A DNA stretch of 64,000 bases, taken from assembly GCA_030840335.1 (NCBI GenBank), contig JAUZFR010000077.1, forward strand, positions 1-64,000. The letters are read 5' to 3'. The stretch's first letter is position 1; the number at the start of each line of letters is the position of its first letter. The position numbers were made by a program, and so were the translations under genes. Positions 5,028-12,978 of this stretch are shown here, one piece after another. Source of the DNA: Actinomycetota bacterium. GTDB taxonomy: Bacteria > Actinomycetota > Actinomycetes > Actinomycetales > Microbacteriaceae. The notes under the pieces are model-generated. The model was given only the letters and a program-made list of their open reading frames with translations. It had not been told where the DNA came from and ran no database searches.

Positions 5028-6584
5028 CTACCCGGCCGTGCGCAGAGCCTCGAGAAGTGCGGCGCCATCCGGTACGCCGAGGCCGGTGCAGGCGTCCCAT
5101 CCCTTTGCTGCGTCAAAGCTGCCGTTCGACCCTGACGTCACGTCTCGAAACCCGCTCGACACCTCATAGAGCTTCGGCTGCACAAGACCGAGCGGAGTGC
5201 CGAGCGACTGGACCATCCGTGCGACAAGCGCCGCCCAGAGCGGTGCGACGGCGCTGGTGCCGCCGAAGACCACTCGCGTACCGTCGACCAGTACCTGGTA
5301 GCCGGTTTCGGGGTCGGCGTTTGCGGCGACATCGGGCACTCCGCGACCTCCGGATGAAGACGAGGCCGAGGGCACGCCCGCGTTCGCCTGCCAGGTCGGA
5401 AGGGCGAAGACGTCGCTCACTCCCCCACCTGTGGCTCCCCCGCCCTGCCCGTTGTTCCAGACGGTCTCCGAGGCAACCGAACCGTTTGTGGCCTTCAGTG
5501 AGGTGCCACCACACGCGAGCGCGTGCGGGCTCGAGGCCGGAAAGTCTGCATGATCAGAACCATCGGAGCTGCCATCGGAGCTGCCGTTGTCCCCGGCAGC
5601 CGCGGTTACCGTGACCCCGAGCGCGGCGGCGTCGAGGAGGGCCTCGTCGAACGCGTTTCGCGCCTGCGCGGTCCACTGGTCTTCGCTCTGCCCCCAGCTG
5701 ATGCTCATCGCCGTCGGTGTCGGCGTGGCGTGAGCGGCATCCGAGATCGCGTCGACGAACCCGGCGTCGGTATTGGGCGCAAAATAGACGACGATAGCGG
5801 CCGCCGGACTGAGAGCTCCTACCACCTCGATGTCCAGGAGGACTTCGCCGTCGGCGCCGCTGGGATCTTTCCCTGGCTCATTGACGGCGCCATCGACGCC
5901 GACTGCGGTGACCGATGGCGAGCCCACACCGAGCCCGCCGAAGTAGGTGTCCAGGTCTTGCTGTGCGTATCCCCCGCCGAGTTCGATGATCGCGATGGTC
6001 TGGCCCGCGCCGTCGGTGTCGGCCGGAAAGTTGTAGATCTGCCCGAGTTGCACGGGTGTGTAGCTCACGGATGCCGCGTGCGCCTGCGCGATGCGAAATT
6101 GCGCGCGAGCCTGCGGACGGTCGTCGAGCCCGAGCACTGCTGTCACGACGCCGGCGAGGGCAGCGGGGATGCTCAGGCCGCCCGTGCGATGGCGGTGCTC
6201 GGCACGGGAACCGCTCGTGCCGCTTGTCACCGCCTCGAGGGAGGTCCCGAAGACTCGGCTCAACGCTGCCGCCGAGCCGGATACGCGGACACGACGGGAA
6301 ACCGGATCGGTCGAGATCACGGACAGCCCGAGGGCGGTCAGGGTGGACACGACGAGCGAGACATCCGCGGGGTCCGCGCCGTACTGAACCTCGAGTTCTT
6401 CGCGCGTGAGCACCTTCGCTAACACGTCAGCCGAATCGATCGGCGCACGACGGCGCAGGACCACCGTCGCTTCGATCGTGCCGTCTTTGTCGAGCTTGTG
6501 GCCGGCGGGCTGGATGCCTTCTGCCGGCGGTCGTTCGCTGCCTGGCAGTGGGACGAGGTCGAGGGGTTCGTTTTCTGACGTCAT
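5028..6584 (-). CDS. S53 family peptidase (sedolisin/kumamolisin-like) with pro-domain
   Basis: Pro-kumamolisin-like N-terminus; catalytic-site motif VFGGTSAVAPLWAALVARM; GDNGSSDGSSDG segment. Confidence 0.92.
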   Translation of the reverse strand: MTSENEPLDLVPLPGSERPPAEGIQPAGHKLDKDGTIEATVVLRRRAPIDSADVLAKVLTREELEVQYGADPADVSLVVSTLTALGLSVISTDPVSRRVRVSGSAAALSRVFGTSLEAVTSGTSGSRAEHRHRTGGLSIPAALAGVVTAVLGLDDRPQARAQFRIAQAHAASVSYTPVQLGQIYNFPADTDGAGQTIAIIELGGGYAQQDLDTYFGGLGVGSPSVTAVGVDGAVNEPGKDPSGADGEVLLDIEVVGALSPAAAIVVYFAPNTDAGFVDAISDAAHATPTPTAMSISWGQSEDQWTAQARNAFDEALLDAAALGVTVTAAAGDNGSSDGSSDGSDHADFPASSPHALACGGTSLKATNGSVASETVWNNGQGGGATGGGVSDVFALPTWQANAGVPSASSSSGGRGVPDVAANADPETGYQVLVDGTRVVFGGTSAVAPLWAALVARMVQSLGTPLGLVQPKLYEVSSGFRDVTSGSNGSFDAAKGWDACTGLGVPDGAALLEALRTAG

Positions 6585-9033: not shown

Positions 9034-9846
9034 CTACTCGTCCGGCGCGGCAAACCAGGGCGGGTAGACCGCGACCTTCGGAGAATGTGCTGCCCCTGCA
9101 AGAAGTTGCCTGACGGCTGCGCGAGCCTTGTCGTGCGCCACTCCGATGAGCGTGATCGACTCGAACGGGATCGACTCGCGTACGAGGAATTCAGCGTGCT
9201 CGAGGGCATCAGAGGTCTGATCCGCGCGAAGTCGACGCAGCGAGCGCTCCACGTCGTCGCGGGTTGTGGCGAACCGCGTGAGCACATGGGCGGCGTCGGC
9301 ATCGGAGACTACGTACGACGCATCCGAATCGGCCACCGTCTTCACCGTGCTCACCAAAAGCACGAAGTCGGCCGCGTCTGCACCCGCGATGTCGCGGCTG
9401 AGCTGGCTGTCGGGCTCGCCCGAACGGATGCTCTGCCAGAGGCGCGCGTTCGGCGAGAGAAAGAACGGCACGAAGCCCGCGACGGTCGCGTCGCCCGAGC
9501 CCGCGACGGGCGTCGTGCGTCGATCCGCTCGCGTTGCAGGTGATGCGATGTCGACTGTCGGCCGAGCGTGCCAGGCCGGATTCTCATCCGCGAACAGGAT
9601 GCCCAAATCAAGGATCGCGGGCAGGTTGCGAACGTGCGTCAAATGATAGATGCGCTGTTCACCGACATTGTCGAGTCGTGCCGCGCCCGCGACGGACTTG
9701 GTCCTCGCGGGAGCCGAACGGACAGCCGTCGCTGTACGCGCTCGGGTCGCCTGCTTAGTCGCGCCGACCGCGACCTCGGGCGCTGGCTTTGGGTAGCAGC
9801 TGGCGCAGAGCCCAGGCTGGAAACCATGGATGCATTCGTCGCTCAC
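9034..9846 (-). CDS. DarT/DUF4433-like ADP-ribosyltransferase with N-terminal Cys/His knuckle
   Basis: ORF 9034..9915; likely start GTG 9846 (VSDECIHGFQPGLCASCYP) with upstream GAAAGG. DarT-like motifs: IYHLTHVRNLPAILDLGILFAD, VPFFLSPNARLWQSI, LEHAEFLVRESIPFESITLIGV. Confidence 0.75.
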   Translation of the reverse strand: MSDECIHGFQPGLCASCYPKPAPEVAVGATKQATRARTATAVRSAPARTKSVAGAARLDNVGEQRIYHLTHVRNLPAILDLGILFADENPAWHARPTVDIASPATRADRRTTPVAGSGDATVAGFVPFFLSPNARLWQSIRSGEPDSQLSRDIAGADAADFVLLVSTVKTVADSDASYVVSDADAAHVLTRFATTRDDVERSLRRLRADQTSDALEHAEFLVRESIPFESITLIGVAHDKARAAVRQLLAGAAHSPKVAVYPPWFAAPDE

Positions 9847-10053
9847 GTGCTGCCTTTCACAATGTTGCCAAACCTCTAGGTTACGCGGCATCCGGTCTTC
9901 TCGTCGGTGAGGCAATCACTTAGATGACCCCCAACCGGGGGAAATCCCTTATAAACCCCGCGTTTTGGGGCGAGCGGAGCCCATCCGAGCGCGCGTAGCT
10001 TCTTAGTCGGGGGAACGTTTGATGTTCCAAATCGAGTACCACTGGGAGGGGCA

Positions 10054-10350
10054 ATGGCAATCAGTAACGCGATCGTGCATCGCATTCCCGCTGGCTGGTA
10101 CCCGGATCGCTTCGACCGCTCTCGTCGCCGCTGGTGGGATGGCACCGAGTGGACTGACTACTACTCCGCCGTGCCGGCCTCACGTCTTCGACTGGTCGAA
10201 AACGAAACAGATGCGATCGATATCGACGAAACCACGACACCCCACACGCTCTCGGGCGCGCTTCACTTCTCCGACCGCCTGCCGGCCTTCATTCTTCTTG
10301 GCCTCGTCGTCGCCAACATCATTGTCGTCGTCATCCTGACGAGAATCTGA
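10054..10350 (+). CDS. DUF2510 domain membrane protein
   Basis: IPAGWYPDRFDRSRRRWWDGTEWTDYY plus one C-terminal TM helix. Confidence 0.85.
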   Translation: MAISNAIVHRIPAGWYPDRFDRSRRRWWDGTEWTDYYSAVPASRLRLVENETDAIDIDETTTPHTLSGALHFSDRLPAFILLGLVVANIIVVVILTRI

Positions 10351-11954: not shown

Positions 11955-12869
11955 CTAGACGAACCGGATCGCGGCCTGGAGCCGTGTGCGCACCTCGAAC
12001 AACTCGCCACCGCCGACCGGAGGCGTTCCGGGAAGGCCATCTCGCAGCAATTCGGGCAACCGCGAGTGCTGCACGAGGGCCGCGGGGACACCGCGCAGTC
12101 GACCGACCAGGGTGAGGCCGGCATCCGTCGCTTCATCCGGAACCACGATTACCATGGCGTCGAACCTCACTCGGGCCGCGCGGGAGACCTGTCGCGTGCG
12201 TCCGGAGAGCGAATGCATCGGATGTTCGCCGCCGAGCACCTCGCCAATCAGTTCGCCCTTTCGCACGCGCACCGGGCCGCCCCAGTCCTCGGACAGTAGC
12301 GCGAAAAGGCCGGTCGGCCCGAGCACGATGTGATCGATCTTCTGCTCGGGACCACCCGCAGTCGCCACGTCGTGCCAGACGGTGAACGCGATTCCGAGTT
12401 GTGCGAGCTCGCGCGCCGTCGCCTCTTCGGCAAGCGCGTCGGCGAGGATGTGACGGATGTCTCGCGGCGCTGACCGAACAAGAGCGGGATCGTAGGGGTT
12501 TTCCACGGTCGTTCCCCGACCAGCCCATTCGCGGATCAAGGTGAGGTAGCGCTCTCGGCGCCAGCCGCCCGGATGCCCATACGCGCGCGCGGTTGGACGC
12601 GTGTCCCGGCGCGGCTTCGCAGTCTGGGCCTCGAACGTTTCGTGCACGGGCGCGGTGCTGCGTCCGCCGTCGTACGCGGCGCGGGCGGTCGCCGTGCCGA
12701 CTTTCTCCCAGGCGAGCTGCACGGCGGTGAACTCGGTCGCGCGTCCGCCAGTGTCCGGGTGGGTCTCGCGCAGCCGTTTGCGATATGCGCGTCGCAACTC
12801 ACTCTCCGAGGCCGTCGCGCGCACTCCCAGCACCTCGTAGGGCGTCGCGGAGATAGGACTGTCAGGCAT
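11955..12869 (-). CDS. DnaJ (J-domain) protein with C-terminal NERD-like domain
   Basis: ATPYEVLGVRATASESELRRAYRKRLRETHPDTGG (HPD motif); C-terminal KIDHIVLGPTGLFALLSEDWGGPV. Likely start ATG 12869; the ORF track extends to 12962. Confidence 0.8.
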   Translation of the reverse strand: MPDSPISATPYEVLGVRATASESELRRAYRKRLRETHPDTGGRATEFTAVQLAWEKVGTATARAAYDGGRSTAPVHETFEAQTAKPRRDTRPTARAYGHPGGWRRERYLTLIREWAGRGTTVENPYDPALVRSAPRDIRHILADALAEEATARELAQLGIAFTVWHDVATAGGPEQKIDHIVLGPTGLFALLSEDWGGPVRVRKGELIGEVLGGEHPMHSLSGRTRQVSRAARVRFDAMVIVVPDEATDAGLTLVGRLRGVPAALVQHSRLPELLRDGLPGTPPVGGGELFEVRTRLQAAIRFV

Positions 12870-12947
12870 CCGCTCGCTTTCAACTCCTACGGCGAGCACG
12901 ATCGTCGCAAGCCAGAATTCGAGAATACTTGCTTGGAGCCGAACTTC

Positions 12948-12978
12948 ACTGACGGCGAGCACTGACGGCGAGCACTGA
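12948..12978. repeat. Short tandem repeat, two perfect 13-bp copies (ACTGACGGCGAGC) plus partial third
   Basis: actgacggcgagc-actgacggcgagc-actga read directly. Confidence 0.8.

Follow-up and report, generated by a model that had tools for sequence, protein, structure and literature searches.

To our knowledge, DarT enzymes have been described almost exclusively as toxins paired with an antidote, and a chromosomal DarT gene with no antidote beside it raises the question of what its product does in the cell. Such a gene lies at positions 9034 to 9846 of the reverse strand in a 64,000-nucleotide stretch of DNA (the whole stretch analyzed, referred to as the window) from a soil bacterium of the Microbacteriaceae (Actinomycetota). 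Its product, referred to as knuckle-DarT, carries a short Cys-His knuckle ahead of a DarT domain. On balance, sequence comparison leads us to lean towards an active, domesticated, stand-alone ADP-ribosyltransferase, not one half of a toxin-antitoxin pair.

The open reading frame and its DarT motifs were present as an earlier note on this DNA had described them, and the assignment made there to a DarT/DUF4433-like ADP-ribosyltransferase was borne out by profile and fold searches. The protein matched Pfam DarT (PF14487) with E = 8e-25 and 88.2 bits (curated cut-off 22.5 bits) and the PADLOC DarT profile with 108 bits, while the NCBIfam equivalog toxin_DarT (NF048013) gave 99.8 bits, under the equivalog cut-off of 150 bits. 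A comparison with DarT structures, also proposed in the note, was made with an AlphaFold2 model built on the family alignment (pLDDT 89). Foldseek matched this predicted model to the Thermus DarT 7omv (E = 2.5e-16, TM 0.81), with further matches to 7omy and 7yk3 and a weaker one to Escherichia coli DarT1 8baq (E = 4e-6), which supports a DarT fold. Knuckle-DarT belongs to the DarT domain family (PF14487) and falls outside the DarTG toxin-antitoxin systems.

The gene starts with a GTG codon at 9846 and encodes 270 aa opening with VSDECIHG. A Shine-Dalgarno sequence, GAAAGG, is located just upstream (9853 to 9858, reverse strand), and AAGG-type sites precede the same start in many homologues. 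Given this GAAAGG before the GTG, and given that homologues open with a matching M/V/L-x-(x)-ECxHG at the same place, the protein begins with the knuckle at its very N-terminus. All three parts of the protein are encoded on the reverse strand: the CxHG-x5-CxxC-x-P knuckle (residues 4-19, positions 9790 to 9837), an Ala/Pro/Arg-rich linker of low model confidence (residues 20-64, positions 9655 to 9789, pLDDT about 48-70), and the DarT-type ADP-ribosyltransferase (ART) domain (residues 65-265, positions 9052 to 9654), recognized by PF14487 and alignments and containing H68xTH71, R109, W137, D184 and E219. The knuckle region was modeled with pLDDT blocks of 83 and 91, and the linker varies from 33 to 78 aa across the family (median 53).

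Residue conservation was counted over 104 distinct knuckle-DarT sequences. Knuckle residues C5, H7, G8, C14, C17 and P19 were identical in 104/104, and this includes four potential metal ligands arranged as C-x-H plus C-x2-C (C5, H7, C14 and C17), in agreement with the small zinc-knuckle-like motif that the note had read at the N-terminus. The knuckle is predicted to bind zinc. In the ART domain, R65, H71, R109, W137, E219 and P263 showed zero variation in the same sequences. The idea that the knuckle is a common domain in its own genome was rejected, as the other 7 of 8 pattern matches were unlike the gene-start knuckle and a control pattern was equally frequent. Elsewhere, an unrelated family of small proteins (~130 aa, no Pfam match) opens with the same type of knuckle (ECIHGMDHSWCSTC); members were seen at L272 (G025:C23:146207) and L251 (G113:C1:187445), the former near an N6-methylase-like gene. 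In genome G023 (L282:about 5885, G023:C39), a 148-aa remnant still has the knuckle and the C-terminus of DarT but is missing the ART core, and no CGTA box is seen upstream of it.

Matches were found in 37 of 119 relative genomes, nearly all in single copy and including 5/5 congeneric relatives. Within this set, 36 of the 72 Microbacteriaceae genomes (own genome included) were DarT carriers, and knuckle-DarT was present in about half of the Microbacteriaceae genera sampled. Because roughly half of the family sampled is without the gene, knuckle-DarT is not essential. A scan of 84,980 species genomes, seeded with a C-terminal motif that may miss more distant knuckle forms, returned 202 relatives. 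The best 80 of these 202, all from Microbacteriaceae or from MAGs named near Microbacteriaceae, had the knuckle in 80/80 cases. As to synteny across the family, which the note had suggested examining, the flanking genes changed between genera. The knuckle was not found in readable DarTs outside Microbacteriaceae in wider order- and class-level samples searched with PF14487, and as far as searched this branch is confined to the family. In the literature searched, which left out most subscription journals, no paper on a knuckle or orphan DarT in Microbacteriaceae was found.

Knuckle-DarTs grouped in a single clade (98/86) that nests next to the DarG-linked type. Most sequences from Cryobacterium and Glaciihabitans clustered by genus, and inheritance is largely vertical within genera. 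The gene is under purifying selection, with core dN well under dS in 15 close pairs. In Lacisediminihabitans changchengi G11-30 the knuckle-DarT region occurs twice, as identical copies of 16,750 bases on separate scaffolds (L189 and L190), either an assembly duplicate or a recent large duplication. Mobility by phage or plasmid was considered and rejected: matches on mobile elements were to distant canonical DarT only, without the knuckle region, and the knuckle form was absent from the phage and plasmid records in the collections searched.

This pattern bears on whether the gene serves in defense. As a one-gene abortive-infection effector, the protein would sense a phage product through its knuckle, unlock the ART domain, and ADP-ribosylate DNA or RNA until the cell is arrested. 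DarT is a known anti-phage effector family, as reflected in the PADLOC match, and N-terminal knuckles recur on proteins, among them the second DarT of one relative, which is linked to UvrD. However, the absence of the knuckle form from phages and plasmids searched, together with housekeeping-type neighbors that vary by genus and no defense islands seen, makes this explanation unlikely; it would also be unusual for a defense gene to be inherited largely vertically and mostly in single copy, and to have a private promoter-like element that is conserved.

The missing antitoxin was then a matter of neighbors and of the whole genome. No DarG macrodomain adjoins the gene in the window, as the note had stated, and beside the gene in 118 knuckle-DarT loci (1.83 Mb) no DarG/MacroD motif was present, bar one spurious match in a 66-residue frame. 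The same motif test detected DarG in the single canonical DarTG locus (G281), and DarG adjoins 10 of 16 DarT loci drawn from the wider class. The note had also called for a genome-wide search for macrodomain and NADAR proteins. NADAR gave 1 match in 119 genomes and none in Microbacteriaceae. Macrodomains did turn up, in 19/36 carriers compared with 6/36 non-carriers (Fisher p = 0.003, with no correction for phylogeny or genome reduction), those inspected being of the MacroD/YmdB type; the own genome has one, of 185 aa and the same type, on contig C65. An ADP-ribosylglycohydrolase (ARH) was found in 11/36 carriers. Eleven carriers had none of the three eraser classes searched (macrodomain, NADAR and ARH), and 9 of these 11 genomes are at least 97% complete.

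These counts were weighed against the possibility, already raised in the note, of a toxin with an unlinked antitoxin, that is, a DarT2-like toxin held harmless in trans by an eraser, for instance the own genome's macrodomain on contig C65, which is of the MacroD type. The higher macrodomain frequency among carriers counts against a stand-alone enzyme, and the unlinked Streptomyces macrodomain SCO6735 can neutralize DarT (PMC9411070). As evidence of partnership, though, the co-occurrence is nominally significant and confounded, and was rejected. Moreover, 17/36 carriers have no macrodomain, the nine carriers noted above with at least 97% completeness have no eraser of any class searched, and the macrodomains inspected are MacroD-type, whereas SCO6735, DarG and TARG1 are ALC1-like macrodomains (PMC9411070). 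An antitoxin acting in trans is disfavored on these grounds, and we regard it as the least probable of the explanations considered.

A conserved neighbor of another kind was also sought. The GNAT (PF14542, 8719 to 9006, forward strand) and DUF2510 (10054 to 10350, forward strand) genes that the note had named were confirmed by Pfam. The former is convergent and downstream and the latter divergent and upstream, and both are context, not partners; the GNAT is found next to it chiefly in Glaciihabitans-like genomes, with a few cases elsewhere. No candidate partner recurred among ORFs of at least 90 aa in 60 loci, and no ORF of at least 30 aa within 1.2 kb recurred in more than 8 of 52 loci. The neighbors were housekeeping-type genes that differed between genera. 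Further out in the window, a DnaJ domain fused to a NERD nuclease-related domain (11955 to 12962, reverse strand) is syntenic in the genus and lies near the gene in some other genera, and a large protease-like protein, sedolisin/S53-like by eye (5028 to 6584, reverse strand), is syntenic in the genus.

Upstream of the gene, a promoter-like element, CGTAACCTAGA (9875 to 9885, reverse strand), is the only match in the window to the family consensus CGTAnCGTTGA, which contains a -10-like TAnnnT. This box (CG-TAnnnT-nGA) was present in 49 of 57 non-redundant upstream regions and in 8 of 1084 control windows; as it was derived from the same upstream sequences, a leave-one-out count was made and gave 47-48/57. 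The box is more degenerate in some other genera. At its closest spacing, in about ten species, it begins exactly 15 nt before the start codon, the position expected of a -10 box for a leaderless mRNA. Three matches occurred in 800 kb of genome G042, and only the one before the knuckle-DarT gene leads into an ORF. Since the box is conserved and almost private, the gene is most likely transcribed as a unit by itself, with the box as its dedicated promoter-like element, in which case +1 would fall a few bases past CGTAACCT. SOS (CGAAC-N4-GTTCG) and RecA-NDp/PafBC boxes were also sought upstream and were not clearly above shuffled sequence. Of the two readings offered by the note, the domesticated chromosomal DarT relative with a knuckle has good support: the gene is conserved, passes largely vertically within genera, has a promoter-like element of its own and shows no linked partner.

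Whether such an enzyme could still be active depends on its catalytic center. By PDB profile alignment, R109 corresponds to the Arg of the QExR/KExR motif (DarT2 R51) and E219 to the E160 position of DarT2, where the crystallized Thermus protein has Ala; the catalytic Glu picked out in the note is this E219, unvaried in 104/104 sequences. The roles of catalytic residues have been described for DarT2 and DarT1, with H119 and N104, respectively, as the base-coordinating residue (PMC11543638). In DarT1 the base-coordinating position is essential, and so is M71 (PMC11543638). The base-reading position, placed by sequence alignment and not by superposed coordinates, is Asp in 98/104 knuckle-DarTs (Asp184 here). 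The column of the RSPM Met, equated with DarT1 M71 by motif, holds V/L/R/I/M beside the invariant Trp137 in the 104 sequences. With the catalytic Arg, Glu and His unchanged, the base reader altered and the RSPM Met position variable, the enzyme seems to have kept its handling of NAD+ and changed that of the acceptor.

Through these same two substitutions, transferase activity could be lost. The protein would then be a pseudo-ART that binds NAD+ or ADP-ribose, or hydrolyzes NAD+, without transfer, serving as a scaffold or sensor via its knuckle. An Asp base reader and a variable RSPM Met position (V/L/R) agree with this, as does the retention of knuckle and C-terminus in the reduced genome G023 after loss of the ART core. 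Most of the core varies among the 104 sequences, yet none departs from the catalytic Glu, the catalytic Arg or the His of HxTH. This speaks against a pseudo-ART, which we consider quite unlikely.

For the favored stand-alone transferase, homology and residue invariance suggest the following course. The ART domain would bind NAD+ via the HxTH strand and R109, and E219 would transfer ADP-ribose. Thymidine, the acceptor of canonical DarT2, is probably not the acceptor here, because the base reader is now Asp and the RSPM segment is now N/D-A-x-x-W; another base, RNA or protein seems likelier. The most likely role of the Cys-His-Cys-Cys knuckle, on its flexible linker, is to anchor the enzyme at its target or to keep it inactive until a signal. 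As the gene appears to form its own transcript from the promoter-like element, and no eraser dedicated to it is linked, the enzyme would be a modifier that is conditional or intrinsically mild, and not the toxin of a toxin-antitoxin operon. A fuller version, which we put forward tentatively and at less than even odds, is an antitoxin-free host system for ADP-ribosylation, found specifically in Microbacteriaceae, in which the Asp base reader would set a new acceptor specificity and the zinc knuckle would target or gate the enzyme, with a dedicated promoter and no dedicated eraser. If true, DarT chemistry would have been turned into a physiological modification of nucleic acid or protein. A clade without an antidote and with catalytic residues kept would allow DNA/RNA ADP-ribosylation to be tested in normal physiology, and could help to show how base specificity evolves and how a small metal-binding fusion tames a lethal enzyme.

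Several known or related systems can be set beside knuckle-DarT. Outside Microbacteriaceae, genome G218 has a consecutive row of protein kinase-like, UvrD-like helicase, divergent DarT and ADP-ribosylglycohydrolase/glyoxalase genes (L242:3676-9430), possibly a DarT-ARH system. The Microbacteriaceae genome G448 encodes a second, different DarT (L244:6370-7341, forward strand); a UvrD-like helicase gene ends about 20 bp ahead of it, and the two together span L244:4112-7341. Like knuckle-DarT, it has a CxHG-x5-CxxC knuckle before the DarT domain, and in the tree it is the sequence closest to the clade, although its branch is long; it differs in an extra Cys-rich stretch and in its place directly behind the helicase gene. 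SCO6735, a stand-alone DarG-like macrodomain of Streptomyces, is likewise a part of actinobacterial DNA ADP-ribosylation that stands unlinked (PMC9411070), but it is an eraser and ALC1-like, whereas the macrodomains inspected in knuckle-DarT genomes are MacroD-type. The guanosine-specific toxin DarT1 (E. coli C7, 8baq; DarT-NADAR) shares the superfamily fold with a weaker match; its N104 base reader is replaced by Asp, and no NADAR occurs in the Microbacteriaceae searched. DarT2, the thymidine-specific DarTG toxin (Thermus sp. 2.9, 7omv-7omy; Mycobacterium tuberculosis, 7yk3), shares the ART fold, the HxTH strand and the catalytic Arg and Glu. In contrast to DarT2, knuckle-DarT stands without DarG, adds an N-terminal knuckle and linker, has Asp in place of the His119/Asn base reader, exchanges the RSPM segment for N/D-A-x-x-W, and mostly has Phe at DarT2 Tyr71.
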